Assembly: GCA_030063045.1 (NCBI GenBank)
Contig: JAQSEB010000084.1
Location: 558,001-622,000, forward strand
Length of the DNA: 64,000 bases
Direction: 5' to 3'
Origin: Pratylenchus scribneri
Taxonomy: Eukaryota; Nematoda; Chromadorea; Rhabditida; Pratylenchidae
Shown in pieces: positions 3,001-26,066 of this stretch; the first letter of the stretch is position 1; each line of letters begins with the position of its first letter. The position numbers were made by a program, and so were the translations under genes. The notes under the pieces are model-generated. The model did not search any database. It worked only from the letters and a program-made list of their open reading frames with translations, and had not been told where the DNA came from.

Positions 3001-3222
3001 GGTGGGTAGGGTGAACTAAGTGATTAAGGAAAATGCTGGTGGATAGGGTAAACTAGGTGATCGAGTAAGATGCAGGTGGATAGGGTGAAGTTGGTGATTA
3101 AGGAAAATGCAGGTGGATTGGGTGAACTAGGTGATCGAGTAAGATGCAGGTGGGTAGGGTGAACTAGGTGATTAAGGAAAATGCTGGTGGATAGGGTGAA
3201 CTAGGTGATTAAGGAAAATGCT

Positions 3223-6700: not shown

Positions 6701-9700
6701 GGGTGAACTAGGTGATTAAGGAAAATGCTGGTGGATAGGGTGAACTAGGTGATTAAGGAAAATGCTGGTGGATAGGGTGAACTAGGTGATTAAGGAAAAT
6801 GCTGGTGGGTAGGGTGAACTAGGTGATTAAGGAAAATGCTGGTGGGTAGGGTGAACTAGGTGATTAAGGAAAATGCTGGTGGGTAGGGTGAACTAGGTGA
6901 TTAAGGAAAATGCTGGTGGATAGGGTGAACTAGGTGATTAAGGAAAATGCAGGTGGATTGGGTGAACTAGGTGATCGAGTAAGATGCAGGTGGGTAGGGT
7001 GAACTAAGTGATTAAGGAAAATGCTGGTGGATAGGGTAAACTAGGTGATCGAGTAAGATGCAGGTGGATAGGGTGAAGTTGGTGATTAAGGAAAATGCAG
7101 GTGGGTAGGGTGAACTAGGTGATTAAGGAAAATGCTGGTGGGTAGGGTGAACTAGGTGATTAAGGAAAATGCTGGTGGATAGGGTGAACTAGGTGATTAA
7201 GGAAAATGCTGGTGATAGGGTGAACTTGGTGATTAAGGAAAATGCTGGTGGATAGGGTGAACTAGGTGATTAAGGAAAATGCAGGTGGGTAGGGTGAACT
7301 AGGTGATTAAGGAAAATGCTGGTGGATAGGGTGAACTAGGTGATTAAGGAAAATGCTGGTGGATAGGGTGAACTAGGTGATTAAGGAAAATGCTGGTGGG
7401 TAGGGTGAACTAGGTGATTAAGGAAAATGCTGGTGGGTAGGGTGAACTAGGTGATTAAGGAAAATGCTGGTGGGTAGGGTGAACTAGGTGATTAAGGAAA
7501 ATGCTGGTGGATAGGGTGAACTAGGTGATTAAGGAAAATGCTGGTGGATAGGGTGAACTTGGTGATTAAGGAAAATGCTGGTGGATAGGGTGAACTAGGT
7601 GATTAAGGAAAATGCTGGTGGGTAGGGTGAACTAGGTGATTAAGGAAAATGCAGGTGGGTAGGGTGAACTAGGTGATTAAGGAAAATGCAGGTGGGTAGG
7701 GTGAACTAGGTGATTAAGGAAAATGCAGGTGGGTAGGGTGAACTAGGTGATTAAGGAAAATGCTGGTGGATAGGGTGAACTAGGTGATTAAGGAAAATGC
7801 AGGTGGGTAGGGTGAACTAGGTGATTAAGGAAAATGCAGGTGGGTAGGGTGAACTAGGTGATTAAGGAAAATGCTGGTGGATAGGGTGAACTAGGTGATT
7901 AAGGAAAATGCTGGTGGGTAGGGTGAACTAGGTGATTAAGGAAAATGCTGGTGGATAGGGTGAACTAGGTGATTAAGGAAAATGCTGGTGGGTAGGGTGA
8001 ACTAAGTGATTAAGGAAAATGCTGGTGGATAGGGTGAACTAGGTGATTAAGGAAAATGCAGGTGGGTAGGGTGAACTAGGTGATTAAGGAAAATGCTGGT
8101 GGATAGGGTGAACTAGGTGATTAAGGAAAATGCTGGTGGGTAGGGTGAACTAGGTGATTAAGGAAAATGCTGGTGGATAGGGTGAACTAGGTGATTAAGG
8201 AAAATGCTGGTGGGTAGGGTGAACTTGGTGATTAAGGAAAATGCAGGTGGGTAAGGTGAACTAGGTGATTAAGGAAAATGCTGGTGGATAGGGTGAACTA
8301 GGTGATTAAGGAAAATGCTGGTGGGTAGGGTGAACTAGGTGATTAAGGAAAATGCAGGTGGGTAGGGTGAACTAGGTGATTAAGGAAAATGCAGGTGGGT
8401 AGGGTGAACTAGGTGATTAAGGAAAATGCAGGTGGGTAGGGTGAACTAGGTGATTAAGGAAAATGCTGGTGGATAGGGTGAACTAGGTGATTAAGGAAAA
8501 TGCAGGTGGGTAGGGTGAACTAGGTGATTAAGGAAAATGCTGGTGGATAGGGTGAACTAGGTGATTAAGGAAAATGCTGGTGGGTAGGGTGAACTAGGTG
8601 ATTAAGGAAAATGCTGGTGGATAGGGTGAACTAGGTGATTAAGGAAAATGCTGGTGGGTAGGGTGAACTAAGTGATTAAGGAAAATGCTGGTGGATAGGG
8701 TGAACTAGGTGATTAAGGAAAATGCAGGTGGGTAGGGTGAACTAGGTGATTAAGGAAAATGCTGGTGGATAGGGTGAACTAGGTGATTAAGGAAAATGCT
8801 GGTGGGTAGGGTGAACTAGGTGATTAAGGAAAATGCTGGTGGATAGGGTGAACTAGGTGATTAAGGAAAATGCTGGTGGGTAGGGTGAACTTGGTGATTA
8901 AGGAAAATGCAGGTGGGTAAGGTGAACTAGGTGATTAAGGAAAATGCTGGTGGATAGGGTGAACTTGGTGATTAAGGAAAATGCTGGTGGGTAGGGTGAA
9001 CTAGGTGATTAAGGAAAATGCAGGTGGGTAAGGTGAACTAGGTGATTAAGGAAAATGCTGGTGGATAGGGTGAACATGGTGATTAAGGAAAATGCTGGTG
9101 GGTAGGGTGAACTTGGTGATTAAGGAAAATGCAGGTGGATAGGGTGAACTAGGTGATTAAGGAAAATGCTGGTGGATAGGGTGAACTTGGTGATTAAGGA
9201 AAATGCTGGTGGGTAGGGTGAACTAGGTGATTAAGGAAAATGCAGGTGGATAGGATGAACTAGGTGATTAAGGAAAATGCTGGTGGATAGGGTGAACTAG
9301 GTGATCGAGTAAGATGCAGGTGGGTAGGGTGAACTAAGTGATTAAGGAAAATGCTGGTGGATAGGGTAAACTAGGTGATCGAGTAAGATGCAGGTGGATA
9401 GGGTGAAGTTGGTGATTAAGGAAAATGCAGGTGGATTGGGTGAACTAGGTGATCGAGTAAGATGCAGGTGGGTAGGGTGAACTAGGTGATTAAGGAAAAT
9501 GCTGGTGGATAGGGTGAACTAGGTGATTAAGGAAAATGCTGGTGATAGGGTGAACTTGGTGATTAAGGAAAATGCTGGTGGGTAGGGTGAACTAGGTGAT
9601 TAAGGAAAATGCTGGTGGATAGGGTGAACTAGGTGATTAAGGAAAATGCTGGTGGATAGGGTGAACTAGGTGATTAAGGAAAATGCTGGTGGGTAGGGTG

Positions 9701-12700
9701 AACTAGGTGATTAAGGAAAATGCTGGTGGGTAGGGTGAACTAGGTGATTAAGGAAAATGCTGGTGGGTAGGGTGAACTAGGTGATTAAGGAAAATGCTGG
9801 TGGATAGGGTGAACTAGGTGATTAAGGAAAATGCAGGTGGATTGGGTGAACTAGGTGATCGAGTAAGATGCAGGTGGGTAGGGTGAACTAAGTGATTAAG
9901 GAAAATGCTGGTGGATAGGGTAAACTAGGTGATCGAGTAAGATGCAGGTGGATAGGGTGAAGTTGGTGATTAAGGAAAATGCAGGTGGGTAGGGTGAACT
10001 AGGTGATTAAGGAAAATGCTGGTGGGTAGGGTGAACTAGGTGATTAAGGAAAATGCTGGTGGATAGGGTGAACTAGGTGATTAAGGAAAATGCTGGTGAT
10101 AGGGTGAACTTGGTGATTAAGGAAAATGCTGGTGGATAGGGTGAACTAGGTGATTAAGGAAAATGCAGGTGGGTAGGGTGAACTAGGTGATTAAGGAAAA
10201 TGCTGGTGGATAGGGTGAACTAGGTGATTAAGGAAAATGCTGGTGGATAGGGTGAACTAGGTGATTAAGGAAAATGCTGGTGGGTAGGGTGAACTAGGTG
10301 ATTAAGGAAAATGCTGGTGGGTAGGGTGAACTAGGTGATTAAGGAAAATGCTGGTGGGTAGGGTGAACTAGGTGATTAAGGAAAATGCTGGTGGATAGGG
10401 TGAACTAGGTGATTAAGGAAAATGCTGGTGGATAGGGTGAACTTGGTGATTAAGGAAAATGCTGGTGGATAGGGTGAACTAGGTGATTAAGGAAAATGCT
10501 GGTGGGTAGGGTGAACTAGGTGATTAAGGAAAATGCAGGTGGGTAGGGTGAACTAGGTGATTAAGGAAAATGCAGGTGGGTAGGGTGAACTAGGTGATTA
10601 AGGAAAATGCAGGTGGGTAGGGTGAACTAGGTGATTAAGGAAAATGCTGGTGGATAGGGTGAACTAGGTGATTAAGGAAAATGCAGGTGGGTAGGGTGAA
10701 CTAGGTGATTAAGGAAAATGCAGGTGGGTAGGGTGAACTAGGTGATTAAGGAAAATGCTGGTGGATAGGGTGAACTAGGTGATTAAGGAAAATGCTGGTG
10801 GGTAGGGTGAACTAGGTGATTAAGGAAAATGCTGGTGGATAGGGTGAACTAGGTGATTAAGGAAAATGCTGGTGGGTAGGGTGAACTAAGTGATTAAGGA
10901 AAATGCTGGTGGATAGGGTGAACTAGGTGATTAAGGAAAATGCAGGTGGGTAGGGTGAACTAGGTGATTAAGGAAAATGCTGGTGGATAGGGTGAACTAG
11001 GTGATTAAGGAAAATGCTGGTGGGTAGGGTGAACTAGGTGATTAAGGAAAATGCTGGTGGATAGGGTGAACTAGGTGATTAAGGAAAATGCTGGTGGGTA
11101 GGGTGAACTTGGTGATTAAGGAAAATGCAGGTGGGTAAGGTGAACTAGGTGATTAAGGAAAATGCTGGTGGATAGGGTGAACTAGGTGATTAAGGAAAAT
11201 GCTGGTGGGTAGGGTGAACTAGGTGATTAAGGAAAATGCAGGTGGGTAGGGTGAACTAGGTGATTAAGGAAAATGCAGGTGGGTAGGGTGAACTAGGTGA
11301 TTAAGGAAAATGCTGGTGGGTAGGGTGAACTAGGTGATTAAGGAAAATGCTGGTGGATAGGGTGAACTAGGTGATTAAGGAAAATGCTGGTGGGTAGGGT
11401 GAACTAAGTGATTAAGGAAAATGCTGGTGGATAGGGTGAACTAGGTGATTAAGGAAAATGCAGGTGGGTAGGGTGAACTAGGTGATTAAGGAAAATGCTG
11501 GTGGATAGGGTGAACTAGGTGATTAAGGAAAATGCTGGTGGGTAGGGTGAACTAGGTGATTAAGGAAAATGCTGGTGGATAGGGTGAACTAGGTGATTAA
11601 GGAAAATGCTGGTGGGTAGGGTGAACTTGGTGATTAAGGAAAATGCAGGTGGGTAAGGTGAACTAGGTGATTAAGGAAAATGCTGGTGGATAGGGTGAAC
11701 TTGGTGATTAAGGAAAATGCTGGTGGGTAGGGTGAACTAGGTGATTAAGGAAAATGCAGGTGGGTAAGGTGAACTAGGTGATTAAGGAAAATGCTGGTGG
11801 ATAGGGTGAACATGGTGATTAAGGAAAATGCTGGTGGGTAGGGTGAACTTGGTGATTAAGGAAAATGCAGGTGGATAGGGTGAACTAGGTGATTAAGGAA
11901 AATGCTGGTGGATAGGGTGAACTTGGTGATTAAGGAAAATGCTGGTGGGTAGGGTGAACTAGGTGATTAAGGAAAATGCAGGTGGATAGGATGAACTAGG
12001 TGATTAAGGAAAATGCTGGTGGATAGGGTGAACTTGGTGATTAAGGAAAATGCTGGTGGGTAGGGTGAACTTGGTGATTAAGGAAAATGCAGGTGGATAG
12101 GGTGAACTAGGTGATTAAAGAAAATGCTGGTGGATAGGGTGAACTTGGTGATTAAGGAAAATGCTGGTGGATAGGGTGAACTAGGTGATTAAGGAAAATG
12201 CAGGTGGGTAGGGTGAACTAGGTGATTAAGGAAAATGCTGGTGGATAGGGTGAACTAGGTGATTAAGGAAAATGCTGGTGGATAGGGTAAACTAGGTGAT
12301 CGAGTAAGATGCAGGTGGATAGGGTGAAGTTGGTGATTAAGGAAAATGCAGGTGGATTGGGTGAACTAGGTGATCGAGTAAGATGCAGGTGGGTAGGGTG
12401 AACTAAGTGATTAAGGAAAATGCTGGTGGATAGGGTAAACTAGGTGATCGAGTAAGATGCAGGTGGATAGGGTGAAGTTGGTGATTAAGGAAAATGCAGG
12501 TGGATTGGGTGAACTAGGTGATCGAGTAAGATGCAGGTGGGTAGGGTGAACTAGGTAATTAAGGAAAATGCAGGTGGGTAGGGTGAACTAGGTGATTAAG
12601 GAAAATGCTGGTGGATAGGGTGAACTAGGTGATTAAGGAAATTGCAGGTGGGTAGAGTGAACTAGGTGATTAAGGAAAATGCTGGTGGATAGGGTGAACT

Positions 12701-14823
12701 AGGTGATAAAGGAAAATGCTGGTGGATAGGGTGAACTAGGTGATAAAGGAAAATGCTGGTGGATAGGGTGAACTAGGTGATTAAGGAAAATGCAGGTGGG
12801 TAGGGTGAACTAGGTGATTAAGGAAAATGCTGTTGGATAGGGTGAACTAGGTGATAAAGGAAAATGCTGGTGGATAGGGTGAACTAGGTGATTAAGGAAA
12901 ATGCAGGTGGGTAGGGTGAACTAGGTGATTAAGGAAAATGCTGTTGGATAGGGTGAACTAGGTGATAAAGGAAAATGCTGGTGGATAGGGTGAACTAGGT
13001 GATTAAGGAAAATGCAGGTGGGTAGGGTGAACTAGGTGATTAAGGAAAATGCTGGTGGGTAGGGTGAACTAGGTGATTAAGGAAAATGCTGTTGGGTAGG
13101 GTGAACTTGGTGATTAAGGAAAATGCTGGTGGGTAGGGTGAACTAGGTGATTAAGAAAAATGCTGGTGGGTAGGGTGAACTAGGTGATTAAGGAAAATGC
13201 AGGTGGGTAGAGTGAACTAGGTGATTAAGGAAAATGCTGGTGGATAGGGTAAACTAGGTGATCGAGTAAGATGCAGGTGGATAGGGTGAAGTTGGTGATT
13301 AAGGAAAATGCAGGTGGATTGGGTGAACTAGGTGATCGAGTAAGATGCAGGTGGGTAGGGTGAACTAAGTGATTAAGGAAAATGCTGGTGGATAGGGTGA
13401 ACAAGGAGATTAAGGAAAATGCAGATGGGTAGGGTGAACTAGGTGATTAAGGAAAATGCAGGTGGGTAGTTTGAACTAGGTGATTAAGGAAAATGCAGGT
13501 GGGTAGGGTGAACTAGGTGATTAAGGAAAATGCTGGAGGATAGGGTGAACTAGGTGATTAAGGAAAATGCAGGTGGGTAGGATGAACTAGGTGATTAAGG
13601 AAAATGCTGGTGGGTAGGGTGAACTAGGTGATTAAGGAAAATGCAGGTGGGTAGGGTGAACTAGGTGATTAAGGAAAATGCTGGTGGATAGGGTGAACTA
13701 GGTGATTAAGGAAAATGCTGGAGGATAGGGTGAACTAGGTGATTAAGGAAAATGCAGGTGGGTAGGATGAACTAGGTGATCGAGTAAGATGCAGGTGGGT
13801 AGGGTGAACTAGGTGATTAAGGAAAATGCAGGTAGGTTAGGGTGAACTAGGTGATCGAGTAAGATGCAGGTGGATAGGGTGAACTAAGTGATTAAGGAAA
13901 ATGCAGGTGGGTAAGGTGAACTAGGTGATTAAGGAAAATGCTGGTGGATAGGGTGAACTAGGTGATTAAGGAAAATGCAGGTGGGTAGGGTGAACTAGGT
14001 GATTAAGGAAAATAATGGTGGATAGGGTGAACTTGGTGATTAAGGAAAATGCTGGTGGATAGGGTGAACTAGGTGATTAAGGAAAATGCAGGTGGGTAGG
14101 GTGAACTAGGTGATTAAGGAAAATGCAGGTGGGTAGGGTGAACTAGGTGATTAAGGAAAATGCTGGTGGATAGGGTGAACTAGGTTATTAAGGAAAATGC
14201 TGGTGGGTAGGGTGAACTAGGTGATTAAGGAAAATGCAGGTGGGTAGGGTGAACTAGGTGATTAAGGAAAATGCTGGTGGATAGGGTGAACAAGGAGATT
14301 AAGGAAAATGCAGATGGGTAGGGTGAACTAGGTGATTAAGGAAAATGCAGGTGGGTAGGGTGAACTAGGTGATTAAGGAAAATGCTGGTGGATAGGGTGA
14401 ACTAGGTGATTAAGGAAAATGCTGGAGGATAGGGTGAACTAGGTGATTAAGGAAAATGCAGGTGGGTAGGATGAACTAGGTGATTAAGGAAAATGCTGGT
14501 GGGTAGGGTGAACTAGGTGATTAAGGAAAATGCAGGTGGGTAGGGTGAACTTGGTGATTAAGGAAAATGCTGGTGGATAGGGTGAACTAGGTGATTAAGG
14601 AAAATGCAGGTGGGTAGGGTGAACTAGGTGATTAAGGAAAATGCAGGTGGGTAGGGTGAACTAGGTGATTAAGGAAAATGCTGGTGGATAGGGTGAACAA
14701 GGAGATTAAGGAAAATGCAGATGGGTAGGGTGAACTAGGTGATTAAGGAAAATGCAGGTGGGTAGGGTGAACTAGGTGATTAAGGAAAATGCTGGTGGAT
14801 AGGGTGAACTAGGTGATTAAGGA

Positions 14824-14828
14824 AAATG
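14824..14828 (+). repeat. Target site duplication, left copy
   Basis: AAATG directly before the left LTR, identical to 26062-26066. It comes from the aaaatg junction present in every satellite monomer. Five bases is a usual duplication length for BEL/Pao elements. Confidence 0.92.
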
Positions 14829-15363
14829 TGTTGGGTTTGGCCAACAACAACAAACTACAATTAAACTACAAATTCGCCACCTTCTCTTCATGCTTTTTGC
14901 TTTCCTGGATGGCTGCCTTGATTCATTCCAAAATATTCACAAAAACGAAAACCATCCTTTTTTACGCTCGCAATTTATTATAATTTCCTAAAAGGCGAAT
15001 ATATTTTTTTTCTTCTCAATTAATTTGATATTTAGCGCGGGGAATTCAAAAGGGGCAAATTGATTTGAGTTGTTCCCCTAGGTCATATTTTCCTCATTTT
15101 TCCCTCTTCCAATCCTTCCCCCTTTCCCTCAATCCCGAGCTCGTCGTTTCACTCCATTTCATTCTTCCGGTGTTTATTCCGAAGGTCGATTTTGGAGCTT
15201 CCTTGTGGCCACAAGCGCATTTGGATTATTTGGCAACCTAATTGCCATTCTTCACAATTGGATTAAACAATTGGCGCGTGGATTATTAATACGAGGATAA
15301 CTTCTTCATTTCCACTTAATTGGAACCGAGGATAACTTAATTTGCTCCAGTGGAAAACCGACA
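14829..15363 (+). repeat. 5' LTR (535 bp)
   Basis: Read side by side with 25527-26061, I find no base difference. It begins TG and ends CA. The first 18 bases can fold as a hairpin: TGTTGG, loop GTTTGG, CCAACA. The middle is AT-rich with a T-run near 15003-15012, followed by a pyrimidine-rich stretch near 15090-15135. A 12-bp direct repeat, CGAGGATAACTT, lies at 15292 and 15327. The promoter should lie in this LTR, but I cannot assign a TATA box, transcription start or AATAAA signal with confidence. Confidence 0.96.
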
Positions 15364-15726: not shown

Positions 15727-16926
15727 ATGTCTGGACCAATTCGTAAAACGATTGGGCCAGCAATTGGTTATCTAAGAGGCAGGATGACCATTGCAAATCA
15801 ATTATTAGCTACTGAGCAAAAGAATGAGGAAGTAGTTAATTCATTGCGGAAAGAGTTAGTTCGATTAACGAAAACTTTCGACCGCCTGGAGGGTGCGCAC
15901 AATGAATGGCGCACATTATTGGCTAATTTAGAAGGTGATGAATTGGATGAGGAATCCACTGTATATGATGGATTTCAAATGGACGATAAACATTTTATGG
16001 ATTATGTGGAAGAGGCTCGGCATTTAATCGACGATATTGAGATTGAATTGGCCGATCATTCTACTGTCGGAAGCACTGAGGGATCGGTACATGAGAGAGC
16101 CCCGGTGCCAACGCAAAGACAGGATAATGGAAATCAGCAACAGCCTCCACCTGTCCAAAATGAACAACAGCAGCCTCCACATGTTACTCCTAGAACTGCC
16201 ATTCCACCTTCTATTCGCCCTAAGCCAAATCCTCGCAGAATTGTTCCAGAAAATGGAGAGGATTTTGGCGATGGTACACCCCGTAGAAATATGCATGGAT
16301 TTGGAGAAGATTTTGGGGATGGAACATCTCCCAGAAACGGACATGGATTTGGGGATTATTTTGGCACTGAGGATTATGTTAAAATTAAAGTGCCAACTTT
16401 CCAAATACCCAAATTCGACGGCAACCCACTCTCCTGGCCAGCTTTTTGGCAAGCTTTTGAATGTTCTATTGAACCATTACGGATTCCCCCAGTTCAAAAA
16501 TTGACATATTTAATTTCATTTTTGGAAAAGGACGTCCTGCCAGTGGTAGCGGGCTATCCTATTATAAATGATAATTATGGCCTTGTGGTTAAGGCTTTGA
16601 AAGAACAATATGGGGACTCAAAAATAATCCGAGAAGCACTTCAATCGGAATTAATCCATTTGAATGCACCTGGTGAGAATATTAATGCGTTGCAAAATTT
16701 CCTCCGTCAATTTGAGAGAATATGCCGCCAATTAGCTGCCATGAACAATTTGGATAGAAAAGATGGATTGCTAATAAATATCATAAAATCCAAGCTTCCA
16801 AAGAAGATTTTGGAACAAATTGTGAAGGCAGAAAGAGCGGCAGGACCCAAATGGGATTTGGATGGATTAAGGTCTTCTTTGGCCGAATTTGTCTCTTTGC
16901 AAGCCGAAATTGAACGATGTGTCAAT
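15727..16926 (+). other. Gag-like region with DUF1759-type domain
   Basis: Residues 1-400, expected to form the particle shell. Residues 20-110 are charged and look helical or coiled-coil. Residues 130-175 are rich in Gln and Pro. Residues 177-214 hold two and a half copies of a 16-residue repeat beginning GEDFGDGT. From about 219 the pattern VPTFQIPKFDGNPLSWPAFW, then LTYLISFLEKD and the LRQFERICRQL helix, matches DUF1759, the Gag-like family found at the start of Pao polyproteins. No cleavage sites can be placed. Confidence 0.85.
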
Positions 16927-19900
16927 TTGCGGCACGATAATAAATCGACAAAGGATAATAAAAACACGAAAGGTGTTTCAGAACATGTTCGTACCTTTGC
17001 CACTGCGGGGGATGATAGAAAGGGGAAAAAGAACGGAAAAGATAGAAAAATCCCTCCCTGTATTTTATGTAAGGGACCACATTGGTCATCCCAGTGCACA
17101 GTGGTCAAATCGCGCGAAAAAAGGATTAAAATTTTGCAAGATCAGGAACGATGCTTTCGCTGTTTTAAAGGCGATCATATGGCCAATTCATGTGAAACTA
17201 AGCGAAATTGCAAAATTTGTAATGGGGGAAAGCATCATCATGCTATCTGCCCAAAATTATTTGACAAGAATGGCATTTTATTACCCAATCCTCCCAATCC
17301 ATATACAGGAAAAGGGAAAGAAGGAAAGTCAGGTAATAAAGCAAATGTTAATGCCACGACAGTGGAGGAATCAAACAATGAAGAGGAAGAGTCTGAGGAT
17401 GTGGCTGCTCAAATGACCATTGTGCCACATTCGCTGACTAATAATTTAATGATGTCCGTTGAGGTAAATTTGTATTCGCCGAATAATCCCGGACATCGAG
17501 TCAAGGCGCTGGTTTTGTTTGATTCCGCCAGTCAGGTGCCATTCATGCGCGGAAAATTGATTGATGAATTGAATCCTCCCAAATTGGGGGAAAATTCTTT
17601 GAATGTTCATGTGCCATTATATCCCGCCAAACGGATTAAAACCCCCCAATATCATATTAAAATGGAACTTTTGGATGGGGGATCAGAGGATTTTATTGTC
17701 CAAAGGCAGGAATGGTTAAATTCGCCTATTCGATGTGCAGATTTGAAGAATGGAGAAATCAAAAATACCAATCGCCGGCCGGATTTGATGATTTGTATTG
17801 GCGAATTTTGGAGATTTTTCCGGGGATTGGAAGAATTGACTCCTTACTTCTTTAGGATTCATACTTCCATTGGCCCAGTTTTGTGTGGGCGGCAACCTAA
17901 ACAGCCCCCAATTAATGGAGTGGGGCCATTGGCTGCCCTTTCATTGTCTGCTGTCGAAAATGAGCCGCCAATTCCATTTTCAGAGGATATCGCTAATTCT
18001 TTTTGGAATTTGGAAAATATAGGAATTGGCGATGATCCCAAAGTCAATGATGATGAAATTGCCGAAGAATTATTTTTAAAATCGGTGAGAATGATCGATG
18101 GCCGATACCAAGTAAAATGGCCTTGGAAATTAATTGAGCCATCAGATTTGCCGCCGAATTACAATATGGCTTTCTCTCGTCTAAAATCTTTATATGAGAA
18201 GTTAAGAGAAAGCCCTGAAATTTTGGATAAAATTAATAAAATAATTCTGGGACAGAAAGATGAAAATATAATTGAAGAATCAACGCGTGAAATTGGCTCT
18301 TTTGAACACTTTTTACCGCACCATGCGGTCATAACTCATAAAGTTCGCCAAGTTTATGCCGCAAATGCCCATGTTCGTGGGAAGAAATCTTTAAATGATT
18401 GCCTTTATAGGGGTCCAGATTATCTTCCGGATTTGGCTGGAATGCTTTTAAGATTCCGCCTAACACCAATTGCTATGTGGGCCGATATTCAGGCTGCTTT
18501 CCTCCAGATTGAGCTGGAAGAAAGTGACCGAAATGTGGTCAAATTTCTTTGGGTTAAAGATATTACCCAGAATTTGACACCATCCAATTTAATAGTATAC
18601 CGTTTTCGTCGCGTGCCATTTGGCGTGATTAGCTCGCCTTTCCTTCTCATGGCGACGGTACGGTATCATCTGGATAAAATCGGCACAAAATTGGCATTAG
18701 AAATTAAAAATAACATTTATATGGATAATACGTTCATGGCAAACAAAGATGAAGCCGAAGCTTTAGAAAATTATAAAAAATCAAAGGAAATATTCGCTTC
18801 GGCTAAAATGAACCTAAGAGAGTTCATAAGCAATTCCGAATTGGTGAATGAAAGTATTCCTAAAGAGGACAGGCTTGATAAAAAGCCGAAAATTCTGGGA
18901 ATTATGTGGGACATAAAATTGGATTATCTTGTTTTAGAATTCCCAAAATTAATTCCTCATGAATTTGTCACTCGTCGAATTATTCTACAGGAATTGAATT
19001 CCAATTTTGATCCCTTAGGCTTTAAAATCCCATGTTTATTGCAAGGAAAATTAATTTTCCAACGCACTTGGGATTTAGCCTTGAAATGGGACGATCCATT
19101 GCCTACGGAATTAGGCAAAGAATGGATGGCATTTACGGCAGAATGGCCGGAAGGAATTTATAATTTGCCTCGCCGGATTATGCCAAACAATGCCGAATTG
19201 ATTCAATTACATGCAACTGTAGATGCCTCAAAGGATGCTTATTGTGCTGCTGTTTATTTAGTCATAAAAAACTCTGATGGATATACTTCCAATCTGATTT
19301 TTGCTAAGAATCGCCTGAGGCCAAGGAAAAAGGATATAACCATCCCAAGGATGGAACTTCTAGGCATGACTTTAGGGATTCGTGCCCTCAATTTTGTGAA
19401 AAATCAACTGAAAATTGATATTAAAAATGAGTATCTATGGACAGATTCTCAGCCAATTTTAAGTTGGATAAATTCAGCGGAAAAACAGCAAAAATTCATT
19501 GCGAATAGATTGGATGAAATTCGAAAAAATGAAAATTGCATTTTTAGGCACGTCCCAACTAAAAGTAACCCTGCGGATTTAGGGACAAGGGGAATGCCAA
19601 TTATGGATTGGATTAATTGCCAATTATGGTGGAATGGGCCCGAATTTTTTACCCTTCCACCAGAATTATGGCCACAATCTATGGAGGTGAGAATTTTGCC
19701 CAAGGAGGGCGAATTGGAAATTTCTACTCTCGCCAACATTATTAAGTCATCATCAAATAATTCTTTAATTGAATTCCATCGCTTTGGTAGTTGGAAGAAG
19801 CTTTTGAGAACTACCATCATTGTTCTACAATTTTTGAAGAAAATAATGAATAAACGCATATCATCTGTGCCAGAAATTGAGGCAATTAAATTAGATTTAA

Positions 19901-22900
19901 ATTCTTTTGTGGATAATTCAATTCTAGCTGAAAGAATTATTATTAAAATTGGACAAAAGAATATTGATGAATTCCTTAAATTAAGAAAGAATTTATCGAC
20001 ATTTATTGATGAAAATGGAATTATAAGGTTAAAAACGCGGATGGATAATTGTGCTGATTATGATTTAGCACATCCCATTGTTTTGCCTAATGGGAAATTA
20101 ATCGAATTATTAGTAATGGAAATTCATAAAGGAATTTTTCACGGAGGTGCAAATGCCACTTGGAATGAATTTTTTAGAAAATTCTGGATTCCATTTGGGC
20201 GAAGAAGAGTGAGAGGAATTCTTAAAAAATGCCCATTATGCATTCGAATTAAATCTCCCCCATTTGCACTTCCAATTATGCCGCAATTACCCTTTGATAG
20301 GGTTCAAAGAATGAATGCATTTACCAGCATTGGGATAGATTATTTGGGGCCTTCAATTTGTAAAATCCAGCACGAAAAGAATAAATTTTGGATTATTATT
20401 ATTACATGTTTAACTACCCGAAGTGTTTATTTAGCCCCTGTTCTATCATTAGACACAATTACATTAATTCACACACTTCGTAGATTTTCAGCTCGAAGAG
20501 CGAAACCGAAACGGATATTGAGTGATAACGGATCATCGTTTAAGGTTTTGTCAAAAATATTCCCCTCCCAAAAAATGAGTTGGGAGGAAAAAGAATTATT
20601 AAATTATTTGAATGAAAATGAGATAAAGTGGCGACACATCCCAGAATTCTCGCCATGGTTCGGAGCAACTTACGAAAGATTAGTTGGATTAGTAAAAAAT
20701 TCATTCAAAAGAACTTTGGGAAGAAAAATCATGGATTGGGAAGAAATACAATCATTTACAATTGAAGTTGAAGCAGTTCTCAACCAACGGCCATTGACAT
20801 GGGTGTCGGATGAAGCTGACGAAATTTGTGCCCTTCGGCCGGTGGATTTTCTCTTACCCAAAGGCACGTTGTCCATTAATCTTCCCAGTATTCCAGAGGA
20901 GGAGAAATTGGATGAAAATTTTGAAATTAAGCCGCTAAAAACGGCAGATCAATTCAGAAAATTGTGGCAAACTTGCCTCGAAAATTTGGATCATTTTTGG
21001 GGAATATGGAAAAAGGACTATTTATTAATGTTAAGGGAGAGAACCTTGGAAAGGTCAACTCATAAAGGCCCTCATTCACAAACAATTCGCTCCCCAAAAA
21101 TTGGTGAAATTGTTTTAGTTGAAGGTGAAACAAAGGCTAGAAATTTATGGCCGATGGGTCGGATAATTGAGCTAATGGGGAGCGAAGGACAAGTGAGAAC
21201 GGCTAAATTAAAAATGCCAAATAAAAAGTTTATTACAAGACCAATTTCTAAGCTATTTCCTCTTGAAATAGGGGAAGAAATTGAAGAATCAGTTGATAAT
21301 TTTGAACCTAAGAAAGTTCAAACTTGTGAAAAAATCGATGAAAAACAAAAGGGCAAAAATGAAGCTACTAATGAATATAAAAACATTTTGCGTTCATCAA
21401 AACATAAATTGATTGCTGCCCCATTAATCAATTTATTCACTGTATTTTTGCTTTTAATTTTTGGTAATTTTATCGAATGCCGCCCTATTATGGCCCCAAT
21501 TTGCTACGAATGTTCGATGGAATGTTTGGACAATGGCATTGTTGCAAAATCGCCTAATATTTTTGATAAAGTAGAAATATGCTGCAATAACCGTCAAATG
21601 TGCTTAATCCACAGTCGTACTCCTGAATTAAGTTTATTCTTGCCAGAATATATATTAATTAGAGGATATGATTGTTGGGGACATTTTTGGAGTAGAAATG
21701 GGAAAATGAAGCAATTAAGGAAATACTGTCCAGCTAAAGACCCTTGCAAATTGATGGATTCCGGATTGGATTGGATTTTGAATCCAGAATGTTACCCGGA
21801 ATGGGCCGAAAAAATTTATGGATTAATTTTGGTTGGAATTTTATTATTTGGGTGCTGCTTAATTAATTTAATTCGAAGTTACATCAAAGCAATTAAATGG
21901 ATTTTGCGACCTTTTTTCCTTCCGTTTATTTTTCTTTATAAAATTTATAAAAGAAAAAATAAAAATGTGATAAGGAAAGATGATAATGCCTCAGGTTCTA
22001 CTTCAAAATCACAAAGAAAACAAGTTAAAAAGCTTCGAAATTTACTGACACATCCAAGTAGAAAAATGATGTCAAGTCGAGCAATCTTTTCAATTTTGAC
22101 ATTTTTCGCTATTTTGTATATAGCTAATGGTACTTCTGAAATATTGTCCTTGACCAGCATGACAGAGGATTGTGTGAAAACGGTGGATTTTGAAACTTGT
22201 GAAATGGAAGGAAAGACCCTTATAAGTCTTCTTCCTAATGGTCAAGTGATAAATTTGATTTTAAAGAATAAAAATGGAAGAATAATGGGTGAAACAGAAA
22301 TAATTATGAAGTCTTTTGGATATGAATGCATGCCTATTTTAGATAAGCATTTAAGATCTTACCAGATAATTACCCGCCATCAAAAAAGTTGCCCCCTAGA
22401 AAATTCATGCGTGGATGACTTTTGCGAAAAAGTCAGACCGGAAATGAAATTGATGGAATTAAATGATGCCAATGAATTTCCTGGGCTATCTTTTTGCCAA
22501 GAATCGTGTTCTTTTCTTTGGTGCGGCTGCGGAGTAACAGTAGGAAGTTCATGTCTTTTCTACCGTTACTACGCCAGGCCAATTAATCAAATATACTATG
22601 AATTAATTAAATGTTCAAATTGGCGTTTTCGCCTTGAAATTGAACTTAAATTATATCAAAATGGATCAAATGAAGTGAAAAATTTGGTTTTGTTTCAGGG
22701 GATGACCACCAATTACCATAATTTCTCTTTAACGTTGGTTGGTGGTTTTCAGCCCCCTTCATCACTTTCTCATTTATTTTTCTTAAAAAATGGAGATGAA
22801 GCAGCCTTAACTGAAAAGATCGAAACAGATTTAATTTGCCAAAATAAAGAACAAGCTGAAAATTTTAAAAATTGTACACTTCAACGAAAAGCATGTGGAG

Positions 22901-25494
22901 AATGTTATCCTCAGGATAAAGAGGCAAAAGTGGAGTGTACTTGTAGAGATTTAAATTTGGAAGAATTTTTTACTGAAGATAAAAGATTGCCAATATCAAC
23001 TGCCCATAATGATTTCCGAGTTGAAAATGGTAGAATTTTGGCAGAAACAAAGCATACATCAATTCTTATGTGGCTATCATTTAAAAATTTAAAATTGACT
23101 GTTAAAAGAAATGATGCAAAATGCATTTTATTGCCTATTTCATTAACAGGATGTTTTAATTGCCTAAATGGTGCTAATTTTCAACACAATTGCACTAGTG
23201 AATTGCCAATGGTTGCCGAAGTGAAATGCCAAACTTTTTCATTTGCAACACATTGTGGAAAAAATGAGACAATTCAAAATACTCTCCTTTCTTTCAGTAA
23301 AGCCGAAATTGAAGAAAATTGCATAGTAGAATGTGGAGAGCAAAGGACTGAATTTTCATTAAAAGGCCATTTATTTTTACTTAACAAAGAAATAGAAAAA
23401 TGGTCTAGAACAAGTGAAAATTCAACAAATGTCAATTCTAAATGGAATTTCCCTAAATTAATTGGATTAGATATCAATGTGGATTATAGTGAAATATTTG
23501 GATTTGTTTGGATACATCTACCGTATTTTTTAATCATTTCCATCATATTTTTACTTGCACTTTATGTTTTCATAAAGTTCAATCCAGCTTTTCGTATTTT
23601 TCGCCTAGTCAGTCGAAAGGTGCTCTTTTTGGGAATTTTTTTGGCCGCCGGAGCTTGCCGATCCCACTCGGCAAAGGCTGATGAATTGGCCTACCCACCA
23701 AACTCCTGGCTCTTCTGGCCAAAACTAAAAATGGAAAGCGAATGTGTGGATGAATATGTGAGAAAGATGGGTGGATTGGGCCATTGGGAAGCACAAAAAC
23801 TTCCTTCATCCTCTTTTGGCCAAAACTTTGGGCTTTCTCAGTTGGGTTTATTCATCCTTGGATCGGTGTTGTACCATTTTCTGCTTGGCCCATTTTTTCA
23901 TTCATTCGCCCGGATCATTCTCAAAACTTTGCTCGCGAAAATACATTTTTTCCTCCCTTTTATTCACATTTATTTCTTAGGAAAAATTATCAAAATCTTA
24001 TTTCCTTTTACAAAACCAATGCCAATTATTCGCATTTGCGCACTGGAAGTTGCCTCCAAAATCGGGAATATTCCCATTGAGGGGGTCGCCGAAAAACTCC
24101 TTTCGTCTATTCCTTTGCGTAATTCCCTTATGCAAATAATGCAAAACCATGCCACCTGGACTAATCATTTGGGAGAAGGCAATAAACGCATCAATGGATC
24201 ACGTTTATCCTTTTGTGGCGCAAATCTCCTTTCCGCATTTCGTGATAGTGGACGTTGTGTCACTGTTGCATTGCGCTATCGCCAACAGGGGAAGCCGCTT
24301 AAATACCCAGAAGGTCCCTGTTTGATTGAGCCCGGAGGCAACACTCATGTCGCATACTTTCCATTGGAATTCATTGACATTGAATTTGCTAACACCGAGG
24401 ATTTCCTTTCAGCCTTGAATTTGCGTTTACATGGGATCGGGGTTACCGCAAGTCCAACTCAGCGTGAACCTTCCCCTATTCCCATTGTTCGCCTTGTCTT
24501 TGGAGGAAATATGAATAGTGGAAATCCCGTCTTTGTGGGAGGTCGGATTGGGCGAAATGCCCCCACTGGGCGTAATATGACTAATCCCCCAATTGGAGGT
24601 CGAAATGGGCCAAATCCTATCATTGGCAATCAAAATCAGCCAATTACCAATAATGAAGGGCGGAACTTGCCAAATTCTAATGTTGGGGGAAGAAATGTAC
24701 CAAATCCCCCCATTAATCATAATCGCCGTCAATCGCCTCGTTCTCGTCCATCCATTTTTTCGCGGATTACATACATTATGATTTTGTTCGCTCTTTTGTT
24801 TTGTTCAGGAACGTTCGTTTTGGCAAGTGCAAGCGAAATGTCTGACCAAGCAAATGAAGTGGATAACCAATTGAAAATTGTGGATGCGGATGATGAACAA
24901 CCGGCAAATGGATCCCTACCCAAGGCACTGGCAGCTGGGGTTCAAGAAGGCTTAATCCCTGGTCGTGATTTTCTGGCCGCAATGTTGGGTGCCATTCGGA
25001 AAATGGGAGATCAGCAACCCACCGGATTGGTGGCGGCTGAACGGGCAGCCCCGGCTCAATACGACCCAATGTTTCCTGGATTGAAGGGCGAACCGATGGA
25101 TGTTTTGGCACGGCGCAAACAAAAAGAGAAGAAGGCGGTGTATGAAGATTTGACTGATGAAGAGGAAGAAGAACGCAAAGAGAAGAAGAAGAAAAGCCGC
25201 CGCCGCCGCCACTCAAGTTCATCCAGCGATGGAAAAGGAAAGTCTTTGGGGAAGGGGCGCAAAAAGTATTCAGGCCGTCGTGAAAGTCCGGAGGCATCAA
25301 CCAGCCAAGCTGCCTATGCCCAGCCAAACATCAGCAATTTGGTCAATGCCCTTGGCCGCTCGGCATTTCATTCCCGTAGTCTGGCAGCAGCATTTCTTCG
25401 TGAAGGCTACTCATCACATGCCATCATGGCCCGCCATCATGCCGAAGCAATGACTGAAATGAAGGCCAAATTGCTCAAAGAACAACGTCTGTGA
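15727..25494 (+). CDS. Gag-Pol-Env polyprotein of a BEL/Pao retrotransposon with PAZ-like extension
   Basis: One uninterrupted ORF of 3,255 residues should encode everything the element needs to copy itself. Domains by residue: Gag-like 1-440, with helical N-terminus and DUF1759 from about 219; zinc knuckles 445-508; aspartic protease about 577-738, D599; reverse transcriptase about 797-1040, D920 and D1000; RNase H about 1155-1290; integrase about 1452-1691; DUF5641-like about 1785-1850; Gn-like 1895-2050; Gc-like 2115-2620; membrane segments 2627-2761; PAZ-like 2762-2887; Gly/Asn linker 2937-2998; membrane segment about 3014-3036 and basic tail to 3255. The protease and host signal peptidase presumably cut it. 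Fusing envelope to pol in one frame, and the long C-terminal extension, are unusual. Start is the first ATG; the stop TGA lies 32 bp before the 3' LTR. Confidence 0.95.
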   Translation: MSGPIRKTIGPAIGYLRGRMTIANQLLATEQKNEEVVNSLRKELVRLTKTFDRLEGAHNEWRTLLANLEGDELDEESTVYDGFQMDDKHFMDYVEEARHLIDDIEIELADHSTVGSTEGSVHERAPVPTQRQDNGNQQQPPPVQNEQQQPPHVTPRTAIPPSIRPKPNPRRIVPENGEDFGDGTPRRNMHGFGEDFGDGTSPRNGHGFGDYFGTEDYVKIKVPTFQIPKFDGNPLSWPAFWQAFECSIEPLRIPPVQKLTYLISFLEKDVLPVVAGYPIINDNYGLVVKALKEQYGDSKIIREALQSELIHLNAPGENINALQNFLRQFERICRQLAAMNNLDRKDGLLINIIKSKLPKKILEQIVKAERAAGPKWDLDGLRSSLAEFVSLQAEIERCVNLRHDNKSTKDNKNTKGVSEHVRTFATAGDDRKGKKNGKDRKIPPCILCKGPHWSSQCTVVKSREKRIKILQDQERCFRCFKGDHMANSCETKRNCKICNGGKHHHAICPKLFDKNGILLPNPPNPYTGKGKEGKSGNKANVNATTVEESNNEEEESEDVAAQMTIVPHSLTNNLMMSVEVNLYSPNNPGHRVKALVLFDSASQVPFMRGKLIDELNPPKLGENSLNVHVPLYPAKRIKTPQYHIKMELLDGGSEDFIVQRQEWLNSPIRCADLKNGEIKNTNRRPDLMICIGEFWRFFRGLEELTPYFFRIHTSIGPVLCGRQPKQPPINGVGPLAALSLSAVENEPPIPFSEDIANSFWNLENIGIGDDPKVNDDEIAEELFLKSVRMIDGRYQVKWPWKLIEPSDLPPNYNMAFSRLKSLYEKLRESPEILDKINKIILGQKDENIIEESTREIGSFEHFLPHHAVITHKVRQVYAANAHVRGKKSLNDCLYRGPDYLPDLAGMLLRFRLTPIAMWADIQAAFLQIELEESDRNVVKFLWVKDITQNLTPSNLIVYRFRRVPFGVISSPFLLMATVRYHLDKIGTKLALEIKNNIYMDNTFMANKDEAEALENYKKSKEIFASAKMNLREFISNSELVNESIPKEDRLDKKPKILGIMWDIKLDYLVLEFPKLIPHEFVTRRIILQELNSNFDPLGFKIPCLLQGKLIFQRTWDLALKWDDPLPTELGKEWMAFTAEWPEGIYNLPRRIMPNNAELIQLHATVDASKDAYCAAVYLVIKNSDGYTSNLIFAKNRLRPRKKDITIPRMELLGMTLGIRALNFVKNQLKIDIKNEYLWTDSQPILSWINSAEKQQKFIANRLDEIRKNENCIFRHVPTKSNPADLGTRGMPIMDWINCQLWWNGPEFFTLPPELWPQSMEVRILPKEGELEISTLANIIKSSSNNSLIEFHRFGSWKKLLRTTIIVLQFLKKIMNKRISSVPEIEAIKLDLNSFVDNSILAERIIIKIGQKNIDEFLKLRKNLSTFIDENGIIRLKTRMDNCADYDLAHPIVLPNGKLIELLVMEIHKGIFHGGANATWNEFFRKFWIPFGRRRVRGILKKCPLCIRIKSPPFALPIMPQLPFDRVQRMNAFTSIGIDYLGPSICKIQHEKNKFWIIIITCLTTRSVYLAPVLSLDTITLIHTLRRFSARRAKPKRILSDNGSSFKVLSKIFPSQKMSWEEKELLNYLNENEIKWRHIPEFSPWFGATYERLVGLVKNSFKRTLGRKIMDWEEIQSFTIEVEAVLNQRPLTWVSDEADEICALRPVDFLLPKGTLSINLPSIPEEEKLDENFEIKPLKTADQFRKLWQTCLENLDHFWGIWKKDYLLMLRERTLERSTHKGPHSQTIRSPKIGEIVLVEGETKARNLWPMGRIIELMGSEGQVRTAKLKMPNKKFITRPISKLFPLEIGEEIEESVDNFEPKKVQTCEKIDEKQKGKNEATNEYKNILRSSKHKLIAAPLINLFTVFLLLIFGNFIECRPIMAPICYECSMECLDNGIVAKSPNIFDKVEICCNNRQMCLIHSRTPELSLFLPEYILIRGYDCWGHFWSRNGKMKQLRKYCPAKDPCKLMDSGLDWILNPECYPEWAEKIYGLILVGILLFGCCLINLIRSYIKAIKWILRPFFLPFIFLYKIYKRKNKNVIRKDDNASGSTSKSQRKQVKKLRNLLTHPSRKMMSSRAIFSILTFFAILYIANGTSEILSLTSMTEDCVKTVDFETCEMEGKTLISLLPNGQVINLILKNKNGRIMGETEIIMKSFGYECMPILDKHLRSYQIITRHQKSCPLENSCVDDFCEKVRPEMKLMELNDANEFPGLSFCQESCSFLWCGCGVTVGSSCLFYRYYARPINQIYYELIKCSNWRFRLEIELKLYQNGSNEVKNLVLFQGMTTNYHNFSLTLVGGFQPPSSLSHLFFLKNGDEAALTEKIETDLICQNKEQAENFKNCTLQRKACGECYPQDKEAKVECTCRDLNLEEFFTEDKRLPISTAHNDFRVENGRILAETKHTSILMWLSFKNLKLTVKRNDAKCILLPISLTGCFNCLNGANFQHNCTSELPMVAEVKCQTFSFATHCGKNETIQNTLLSFSKAEIEENCIVECGEQRTEFSLKGHLFLLNKEIEKWSRTSENSTNVNSKWNFPKLIGLDINVDYSEIFGFVWIHLPYFLIISIIFLLALYVFIKFNPAFRIFRLVSRKVLFLGIFLAAGACRSHSAKADELAYPPNSWLFWPKLKMESECVDEYVRKMGGLGHWEAQKLPSSSFGQNFGLSQLGLFILGSVLYHFLLGPFFHSFARIILKTLLAKIHFFLPFIHIYFLGKIIKILFPFTKPMPIIRICALEVASKIGNIPIEGVAEKLLSSIPLRNSLMQIMQNHATWTNHLGEGNKRINGSRLSFCGANLLSAFRDSGRCVTVALRYRQQGKPLKYPEGPCLIEPGGNTHVAYFPLEFIDIEFANTEDFLSALNLRLHGIGVTASPTQREPSPIPIVRLVFGGNMNSGNPVFVGGRIGRNAPTGRNMTNPPIGGRNGPNPIIGNQNQPITNNEGRNLPNSNVGGRNVPNPPINHNRRQSPRSRPSIFSRITYIMILFALLFCSGTFVLASASEMSDQANEVDNQLKIVDADDEQPANGSLPKALAAGVQEGLIPGRDFLAAMLGAIRKMGDQQPTGLVAAERAAPAQYDPMFPGLKGEPMDVLARRKQKEKKAVYEDLTDEEEEERKEKKKKSRRRRHSSSSSDGKGKSLGKGRKKYSGRRESPEASTSQAAYAQPNISNLVNALGRSAFHSRSLAAAFLREGYSSHAIMARHHAEAMTEMKAKLLKEQRL
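17059..17250 (+). other. Three CCHC zinc knuckles (nucleocapsid)
   Basis: Residues 445-508 hold three Cys/His boxes. The first, starting at C445, is CX2CX3HX4C, one residue short of the usual spacing. The second (C476) and third (C495) are standard CX2CX4HX4C. Such knuckles bind genomic RNA in retroelement Gag proteins. A basic stretch rich in Lys and Arg precedes them. Confidence 0.9.
17455..17940 (+). other. Aspartic protease, A17/DUF1758 type
   Basis: Residues about 577-738. The active-site motif reads LFDSASQVPF with catalytic D599; Pao proteases more often read DSGSQ. The later segment PDLMICIGEFWRFF and GPVLCG fits the conserved end of DUF1758 (an LIG-like strand and the following W-F). 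It should cut the polyprotein as a dimer. The Gly-to-Ala change in the motif is tolerated in some retroviral-type proteases, so activity is plausible but unproven. Confidence 0.85.
18115..18846 (+). other. Reverse transcriptase domain
   Basis: Residues about 797-1040. Motif A reads MWADIQAAFLQIEL with D920. Motif B reads RRVPFGVISSPFLLMATVRY, typical of BEL/Pao. The active-site box reads YMDN at 998-1001, where most reverse transcriptases have YxDD, so the second Asp of the pair is Asn. Upstream HHAVITHKVRQVYAANA matches the conserved entry strand of this family. It copies the element's RNA into DNA from the primer binding site. Confidence 0.93.
19189..19596 (+). other. RNase H domain
   Basis: Residues about 1155-1290. 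The four acidic residues are present: D1166 in VDASKDAY, E1210 in RMELLG, D1240 in TDSQ and D1284 in NPADLGTRG. Removes the RNA strand during reverse transcription. The trailing LWWNGPEFF is the usual BEL/Pao motif after RNase H. Confidence 0.92.
20080..20800 (+). other. Integrase: H2C2 zinc finger and DDE core
   Basis: The H2C2 finger has H1467, H1472, C1502 and C1505. The catalytic core has D1538 in GIDYLGP, D1600 in SDNGSSF and E1650 in ATYERLVGLVK, with 49 residues between the second Asp and the Glu. All catalytic residues are intact, consistent with the clean 5-bp target duplication. Confidence 0.93.
21079..21276 (+). other. DUF5641-like integrase C-terminal region
   Basis: Residues about 1785-1850: IGEIVLVEG, LWPMGRIIEL, then VRTAKLK and RPISKLFPLE. 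This order (W-x2-G-x-I, VR, RP-x2-KL-x-PL) is typical of the domain following the integrase in BEL/Pao polyproteins. It probably binds DNA. Confidence 0.85.
21409..21876 (+). other. Envelope, first subunit (Gn-like position)
   Basis: Residues about 1895-2050. A hydrophobic segment at about 1902-1918 looks like a signal anchor and is followed by a short Cys-rich outer part, then a membrane segment at about 2030-2050 and a basic cytoplasmic stretch. The order (signal, Cys-rich part, anchor, second signal, Gc) mirrors the phlebovirus Gn-Gc precursor, but this part is far shorter than a viral Gn and I see no direct sequence match. Confidence 0.55.
22069..23586 (+). other. Envelope, Gc-like class II fusion glycoprotein
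   Basis: Residues about 2115-2620. An internal signal-like segment lies at 2119-2135. The ectodomain has many cysteines and several N-glycosylation sequons, for example near 22664, 22718 and 22872. A Cys/Gly/aromatic cluster at residues 2257-2280 corresponds in pattern to the fusion loop of phlebovirus G2. A membrane anchor at about 2592-2618 ends it. The family is known in nematode BEL elements such as Tas and Cer. It suggests the element can bud or spread as a virus-like particle, but that is inference. Confidence 0.75.
23605..24009 (+). other. Membrane-rich linker after the envelope anchor
   Basis: Residues about 2627-2761. A short signal-like segment (VLFLGIFLAAGAC) is followed by a polar stretch with a few Cys and Trp residues, then two or three hydrophobic stretches between about 2703 and 2760. 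I recognise no family. It lies beyond the normal end of a Gc glycoprotein and may be a separate small membrane protein released by cleavage. Confidence 0.5.
24010..24387 (+). other. PAZ-like domain (Argonaute type)
   Basis: Residues about 2762-2887, about 126 residues, the size of a PAZ domain. The second half is the clearest: AFRDSGRCVTVALRYRQQG, then LKYPEGPCLI, then AYFPLEFIDIE. This follows the PAZ order: aromatic residue, VTVA-x-Y, LKYP-x-x-PCL, Y-x-PLE. The first half (PIIRICALEVA, a helical stretch, then HLGEGNKRINGSRLSF) is compatible with the earlier PAZ strands but weaker. PAZ domains bind the 3' end of small RNAs. No intact PIWI catalytic domain follows. I know of no retrotransposon with this domain after its envelope. 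The call rests on motif reading and needs a profile search. Confidence 0.65.
24388..24534 (+). other. Possible remnant of an Argonaute Mid/PIWI junction
   Basis: Residues about 2888-2936. The run EDFLSALNLRLHGIGV, followed after a short gap by PIPIVRLVFGG, loosely resembles the Argonaute pattern in which a helix ending NxKLGGxN is followed by a strand ending GxDV at the start of PIWI. The PIWI catalytic Asp is not visible. If real, the usual linker and Mid region between PAZ and this point would be missing. Low confidence. Confidence 0.3.
24535..24720 (+). other. Gly/Asn/Pro-rich linker
   Basis: Residues 2937-2998 are low-complexity, with repeated GGRN, NPPI and PNP steps. Probably disordered. 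It separates the PAZ-like region from the last membrane segment. Confidence 0.8.
24763..25494 (+). other. C-terminal membrane segment and highly basic tail
   Basis: Residues about 3013-3255. A hydrophobic segment (about 3014-3036) resembles a signal or anchor. Then come a helical Ala/Gly-rich part, an acidic run at about 3144-3149, a run of Lys and Arg to 3161, and a Ser run; the end is again helical and Ala-rich. The basic run resembles a nuclear localisation or nucleic-acid-binding patch. No family recognised. The DNA here looks visibly richer in G and C than the pol and envelope parts. Confidence 0.6.
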
Positions 25495-25526: not shown

Positions 25527-26061
25527 TGTTGGGTTTGGCCAACAACAACAAACTACAATTAAACTACAAATTCGCCACCTTCTCTTCATGCTTTTTGCTT
25601 TCCTGGATGGCTGCCTTGATTCATTCCAAAATATTCACAAAAACGAAAACCATCCTTTTTTACGCTCGCAATTTATTATAATTTCCTAAAAGGCGAATAT
25701 ATTTTTTTTCTTCTCAATTAATTTGATATTTAGCGCGGGGAATTCAAAAGGGGCAAATTGATTTGAGTTGTTCCCCTAGGTCATATTTTCCTCATTTTTC
25801 CCTCTTCCAATCCTTCCCCCTTTCCCTCAATCCCGAGCTCGTCGTTTCACTCCATTTCATTCTTCCGGTGTTTATTCCGAAGGTCGATTTTGGAGCTTCC
25901 TTGTGGCCACAAGCGCATTTGGATTATTTGGCAACCTAATTGCCATTCTTCACAATTGGATTAAACAATTGGCGCGTGGATTATTAATACGAGGATAACT
26001 TCTTCATTTCCACTTAATTGGAACCGAGGATAACTTAATTTGCTCCAGTGGAAAACCGACA
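25527..26061 (+). repeat. 3' LTR (535 bp)
   Basis: Direct copy of the 5' LTR at an offset of 10,698 bp, with identical length and, as far as I can read, identical sequence. It should provide the transcript's 3' end. It abuts the satellite target duplication on its right. Confidence 0.96.
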
Positions 26062-26066
26062 AAATG
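26062..26066 (+). repeat. Target site duplication, right copy
   Basis: AAATG directly after the right LTR, matching 14824-14828. Removing the element and one copy leaves an ordinary monomer junction, ggaaaatg followed by ctggagg. Confidence 0.92.

Follow-up and report, generated by a model that had tools for sequence, protein, structure and literature searches.

The PAZ module and the provirus that carries it

The window analysed here is a stretch of 64,000 nucleotides from the nematode Pratylenchus scribneri (contig JAQSEB010000084.1, positions 558,001 to 622,000 of the forward strand). It contains a young BEL/Pao (Belpaoviridae-type) provirus with an envelope, whose single open reading frame (ORF) continues behind the envelope into a segment resembling the PAZ domain of Argonaute proteins (Table 1). 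Elements of the BEL/Pao group are recognized by long terminal repeats (LTRs), an A17 peptidase, a reverse transcriptase (RT), an integrase and a short target-site duplication. All of these are present in the element, the RT and integrase matches being under their curated cut-offs. The insertion is young, because the two LTRs are identical over 535 bp and the 5-bp duplication AAATG is present on both flanks. The element also has the traits of envelope-bearing nematode belpaoviruses, a phlebovirus G2-like envelope (E 1.1e-57) and the motif YMDN in the RT region of the frame (within 17227-19500). Atlas virus, a hookworm belpaovirus, and other nematode belpaoviruses likewise have LTRs, a single Gag-Pol-Env frame and a G2-like envelope, and in Atlas virus the polymerase motif Y[X]DN reads YVDN (PMC9094657). 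According to the parts of that paper available to us, Atlas virus ends at its envelope, whereas the window frame continues for 624 residues beyond the envelope membrane segment, PAZ included; the words “PAZ” and “Argonaute” are absent from the main text of the same paper.

An earlier note on this DNA, made from the letters alone, had described a PAZ-like segment after the envelope of a BEL/Pao element, and this observation was confirmed. The identification as PAZ was borne out as well. The sequence profile and the predicted fold both support a PAZ domain that descends from Argonaute, and so does the extent of the match, which begins in the last part of the Argonaute linker L1, spans PAZ and enters the first part of L2. 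In the provirus, this domain is an accessory module that follows the envelope. A profile built solely from BEL sequences matched the PAZ domain of AGO1 with an E value of 1.7e-6 and, as a test of PAZ membership, a profile of the mobile PAZs from outside BEL elements scored 48.8 bits. The modelled fold agrees with that of Argonaute PAZ domains (PF02170; PDB 1si2, 6ra4 and 8thq), with which the module also shares its length, its extent from L1 end to L2 start and the order of its motifs. Argonautes also have a PIWI domain, whereas no PIWI match at E<=1 was found in the window polyprotein, searched as eight pieces that jointly cover it. The viral structure library BFVD gave no match to the module at E<=0.001.

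The outcome of the direct comparison with PF02170, by which the note proposed to check its claim, was divided. The window sequence alone reaches 12.1 of the 28.8 bits of the curated cut-off, which is a detection threshold and not a trait of the domain, and a differently cut window segment gave no match to PF02170 at E<=1; the relatives L028, L030 and L062 pass. The weak scores of single sequences would agree with a resemblance due to chance or to some other small barrel fold. The two profile matches and the fold of the model speak against this explanation, which we rejected and consider extremely improbable.

Table 1. Features of the provirus, in positions of the window.
Feature	Position	Strand	Basis
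Target-site duplication AAATG, left copy	14824..14828	.	matches right copy, 5 bases
5' LTR, 535 bp	14829..15363	+	identity to 3' LTR; TG...CA ends
Single open frame, 3255 aa: gag-pol-env-PAZ-tail	15727..25494	+	ORF translation; domain matches
gag-like DUF1759	16414..16839	+	E 5.3e-26
Reverse transcriptase, portion within one 500-aa piece	18472..18726	+	RVT_1 E 5.4e-5, under curated cut-off in cut piece
Pao peptidase A17	18970..19449	+	E 7.4e-48
Integrase core rve	20368..20652	+	E 2.9e-6, under curated cut-off (cut piece)
DUF5641, end of pol	20962..21264	+	E 2.2e-14
Phlebovirus G2-like envelope fusion protein	22138..23064	+	E 1.1e-57
Linker, envelope membrane segment to PAZ	23620..24018	+	weak protein constraint and low dS, measured in relatives
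3'-splice-site-like run ending AG	23966..23980	+	38 nt 5' of PAZ start codon
PAZ module: L1 end, PAZ, L2 start	24019..24387	+	in-frame Met 24019; PLE end 24369
Hydrophobic, signal-peptide-like stretch 3' of PAZ, then R/S- and K-rich tail	24760..24831	+	by eye
3' LTR, 535 bp	25527..26061	+	identity to 5' LTR
Target-site duplication AAATG, right copy	26062..26066	.	matches left copy

Relatives of the module in the genome and in public databases

The genome (276 contigs, 227,248,964 bases) was searched for further copies, and the same fusion was found elsewhere. Seven more loci match the window PAZ at 48-63% identity, one of which (L038) has a frame that is broken upstream, and the module is also present at L061, L062 and L063. 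The PAZ of L062 (30.7 bits, above the Pfam cut-off) follows a G2 envelope in a frame of 3606 aa that also contains A17. At L061, PAZ (21.8 bits) follows DUF5641 and a G2 envelope, and the retrieved stretch showed no RT, A17 or integrase. L063, a single copy, has PAZ (24.3 bits) directly after the DUF5641 of a BEL pol, with no envelope match. Judged from these sequences, the PAZ module is common to at least four BEL-type lineages. We also paired, by eye, the 150 scored A17 matches (of 263 candidates) with the listed PAZ matches. For eleven of them, a same-strand PAZ lies 2.7-6.1 kb downstream, in seven cases in frame with A17, and the eleventh pair (C68) is linked by distance alone; for the other 139, no PAZ was detectable among the matches listed. 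Two minor observations concern these loci. In L061:1-1938, DUF1758 and DUF5641 are close neighbours and nothing matching RT, A17 or integrase separates them, as if the middle of pol had been lost. On C68, a further PAZ-like ORF (30.1 bits; L067:219-554, minus strand) is preceded by a BEL A17 match 5 kb upstream.

A search of the genome with PF02170 gave at least 138 matches (the best 150 of 256 candidates were scored). The retrieved loci, which are the ones we classified, include probable host Argonaute exons and, in addition, stand-alone ORFs with lengths of about 120-400 aa. The gene set of Maverick/Polinton elements consists of an integrase, an ATPase, a protease, a protein-primed PolB and a capsid protein, and parts of this set were found near the stand-alone ORFs. 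On C27 (L039, L064 and L066), an rve integrase and a chromodomain are over their cut-offs, a C5/C48-type protease and an A32/IVa2-type ATPase (L039 and L064) are just under theirs, and a weak PolB match (E 0.0015) was obtained in the adjoining stretch. C63 (L065) has an rve match (E 2e-5), a protease (E 0.007) and a double-jelly-roll-like match (E 0.07), all under the cut-offs. A tblastn survey of the neighbours covered L001-L060, many of which are near-copies, with L039 as the source of two queries. Relatives of the protease lie within 1.5 kb of PAZ in seven of the eight group A loci (L022, L024-L028 and L030; not L029), and an ATPase and/or a TBP-like gene lies within the same distance in all 12 loci of group B (L039, L041-L043, L045-L051 and L054). 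Both genes are also present at the degenerate L060. In group C, one locus out of nine (L053) has, again within 1.5 kb, a protease together with a relative of the L065 jelly-roll candidate. This partial evidence suggests that the hosts of the stand-alone PAZ ORFs are Maverick/Polinton-type elements. A PDB search with a 388-aa Maverick ORF gave no match at E<=1.

Other genes lie beside these ORFs. The TBP-like gene of group B (PF00352, E 2.7e-12; L039:1987-2907, plus strand, and relatives) follows the PAZ ORF. At L022, L024-L028 and L030, the group A PAZ has a neighbouring ORF that resembles ADP-ribosyl cyclase; the match to PF02267 passes the cut-off in L022 alone. The group A PAZ ORF of L029 is adjoined by a full-length innexin ORF (E 4.8e-85; L029:1980-3035, minus strand), which may be cargo or a host gene. 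PAZ copies are evenly spaced on C63 (11769, 31914 and 52058; about 20.1 kb) and on C138 (42318, 80727 and 119136; about 38.4 kb), which suggests tandem arrays of elements or an effect of the assembly.

When a 15-row profile was compared with public proteins, 17 of the 622 candidates matched at E<=8e-14, of which 16 carry a precomputed PF02170 annotation. Meloidogyne enterolobii contributes three of them and Aphelenchoides avenae one. By profile, these four belong to the same mobile PAZ family, with PF02170 as their sole precomputed domain; they are free proteins of 177-238 aa, and in alignments covering 47-54% of the query they share 25-27% identity with the window. The A. avenae protein AAVH_38727 (P0018) appears, by eye, to consist of two PAZ-like halves in tandem. 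No viral contigs with relatives were found.

The PAZ tree contains 37 rows and 125 columns, including human AGO1 and ten exons that we presume to be host exons, a label of our own based on their being short with no mobile neighbours seen. Left outside it were L005-L007, L011 and L014-L017 (stops or introns), near-copies, unretrieved matches, L038 with its broken frame and the degenerate L060. The mobile PAZs lie on one side of a branch with support 93/82, apart from the sampled presumed host exons. The BEL rows group with Maverick groups B and C (97/89); monophyly of the BEL rows costs two changes and is seen in 14% of the bootstrap trees. The tree is short and has several long branches, for which the program gave a warning. 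A recent capture from the Argonautes of this host is disfavoured by the tree, within the limits of ten self-labelled host exons, human AGO1 and 125 columns. The immediate source of the window PAZ may instead have been another mobile element, because the family is shared across elements and the mobile PAZs are found together in the tree. The topology suits a passage of the domain between the BEL/Pao and Maverick-type classes, in either direction, and we propose that the family passed between such elements of nematodes. The earlier note had suggested that this element captured a host Argonaute exon. The Argonaute origin stands, and the remainder was too narrow, as at least four BEL-type lineages, Maverick-type ORFs and other nematodes share the domain. 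The comparison with Argonautes in a tree, which the note had also proposed, gave the separation described above, with AGO1 and the ten exons as its only host rows.

Selection and the RNA 3'-end pocket

Selection was estimated as the ratio of nonsynonymous to synonymous divergence (dN/dS). For the PAZ module, dN/dS is 0.01-0.14 in the seven measurable pairs of the 21, with dS of up to 0.79; the remaining 14 pairs are saturated in dS. These values point to strong purifying selection on PAZ in the related copies, which favours some function. In five pairs of relatives, the envelope has a dN/dS of 0.06-0.09, PAZ of 0.02-0.13 and the parts behind PAZ of 0.18-0.41. A stretch similar to the hydrophobic segment behind the window PAZ is present in L032, L033 and L035-L038. 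The linker differs: in five pairs of relatives, the window not among them, its dN/dS is 0.66-0.86 (0.64-1.26 without the last 20 codons). Envelope and PAZ have a dS two to six times that of the linker (0.05-0.26; L032/L033 and L034-L037), and the linker has a higher dN than either of them in every one of the five pairs. Because a high dN/dS is combined with a low dS, the linker seems to be weakly constrained as protein and constrained in its nucleotides, as if it carried a signal.

The pocket that holds RNA 3' ends includes H269, F292, Y309, Y314 and Y336, according to the parts of two studies on AGO1/AGO2 available to us (PMC4504477, PMC5896489). Which residues align with F292 is uncertain, and a gap adjoins the Y314 column. 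In AGO1 numbering, the window retains H269 and Y336, and the F292 column holds an Ala with an adjacent Phe, but unlike Argonaute PAZ domains it has R and G at Y309 and Y314. The corresponding residues in L035 are H, A (F next), Y, W and Y, and those in six Maverick locus rows of groups B and C are H, A (C or F next), an aromatic residue, H, and Y or F. Maverick rows mostly have an aromatic residue or His at Y309, and His at Y314. Several relatives could thus plausibly bind RNA 3' ends, whereas for the window copy such binding is doubtful. The decoy suggested in the note, which would hold small-RNA 3' ends, may therefore not apply to this copy.

Possible release and role of the module, and setting of the provirus

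PAZ starts with Met-Pro in nine of the ten BEL copies and with Met-Gln in L061. A splice-acceptor-like AG is located 38-70 nt upstream of this start in all seven copies of the window clade and in none of the three copies L061-L063. This AG is a hint of a separate spliced product and only a hint, because the seven copies represent three lineages and splice-like sites are expected by chance at 0.83 per 150 nt in the window linker, compared with 0.04-0.36 in nine other stretches. A polyprotein is equally possible because the frame is open through the linker. We infer that PAZ would become a protein of its own, either because the polyprotein is cleaved or because a spliced RNA starting at Met 24019 encodes it. 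In C. elegans, the LTR element Cer1 makes an extra protein, CERV, from a spliced mRNA with acceptors before the start codon, as would the proposed PAZ product; according to the available parts of that work, CERV differs in having no known homology outside nematodes and aids export of the element RNA (PMC10309623).

Apart from the silencing that both face, little unites a retroelement with a DNA element, yet both keep PAZ; we therefore regard antagonism of silencing as the likeliest role of the module. We lean towards the reading that the window PAZ is an Argonaute-derived member of a mobile family shared by BEL/Pao and Maverick-type elements, freed and interfering with small-RNA silencing. Acting as a loose Argonaute part, it would either hold the 3' ends of guides or compete for Argonaute partners, and the change of two pocket residues makes competition the likelier mode in the window copy. 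We are more hesitant, and place it somewhat short of probable, about the wider proposal that two unrelated classes of nematode elements, envelope-bearing BEL/Pao and Maverick/Polinton, share and exchange PAZ as a separately made weapon against silencing.

Several points weigh against the reading we lean towards. The window PAZ by itself stays under the Pfam cut-off, and its residues R and G occupy two pocket positions. All six pairs that include the window are saturated in dS and therefore yield no dN/dS. The tail behind PAZ also appears moderately constrained, so that PAZ is not the sole part kept. The open frame of the intact copies, which runs through the linker, favours a polyprotein over a separate mRNA. 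Moreover, all BEL-borne PAZ copies known here come from a single genome: no protein combining envelope and PAZ was found in public databases at E<=1e-10, a weak test since no envelope relative was found either, nor at E<=0.001, where only proteins of 690-2196 aa could qualify.

The other explanations give the module a different task or none. It could serve the RNA of the element itself within the polyprotein, by aiding packaging or by binding a 3' end, either that of the primer tRNA or that of the genomic RNA, and leave host silencing untouched. The single open frame shared with gag, pol and env agrees with this, as does the R/S- and K-rich, potentially RNA-binding tail that follows PAZ. Maverick-type elements replicate as DNA, however, and carry the same family as stand-alone ORFs, which a role in retrotransposition would not explain; the window copy, moreover, has two altered pocket residues. 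We judge this role unlikely. The position of the module behind the envelope membrane segment and the hydrophobic stretches on both sides of it would also suit an inner, cytosolic envelope tail for assembly contacts, its PAZ origin being incidental. This is quite unlikely, given that in the single copy L063 no envelope match lies between DUF5641 and the PAZ that directly follows it, that the joining linker is weakly constrained as protein and that nothing follows the envelope in the related hookworm element Atlas virus, according to the available parts of its description (PMC9094657).

A captured exon might also drift as a passenger without any function. The two changed pocket residues and the saturation that keeps the selection on the window copy itself from being measured are compatible with this, but the dN/dS of the relatives at such high dS and the retention of the module in at least four BEL-type lineages make it highly improbable.

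The reading of PAZ as an antagonist of silencing can be set beside known systems. Viral suppressors of RNA interference (RNAi) would likewise block silencing. Among the matches listed in the open-licence PMC literature, preprints being outside its scope, there was no report of a PAZ-based RNAi suppressor or of PAZ in Maverick or retrotransposon contexts. To our knowledge, how intact young retroelements escape silencing in nematodes is largely an open question, and a selected Argonaute part in two unrelated element classes is a direct and testable candidate for counter-defence. We know of no earlier silencing suppressor built from a part of Argonaute itself; if the counter-silencing reading is true, this would be the first one as far as we know. 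The finding also suggests that a gene has passed between a retroelement and a DNA-virus-like element. Nematode Mavericks are virus-like elements with captured genes as well, and move cargo genes between species (Widen's talk, meeting report PMC10680173); the cargo named in the available part of that report consists of proteases and kinases, and PAZ is not mentioned there. Nematode Argonautes are exceptionally diverse, as stated in the portion of PMC4901422 available to us.

Two further observations concern the composition of the locus. The provirus sits inside an array of 37-bp repeats, the flanks 1-14823 and 26067-64000 having self-matches at 37 bases of 0.915 and 0.904, respectively. At 45%, the G+C content of the PAZ module (24019-24411) exceeds both the 38% of the element and the 33% of the measured envelope stretch.

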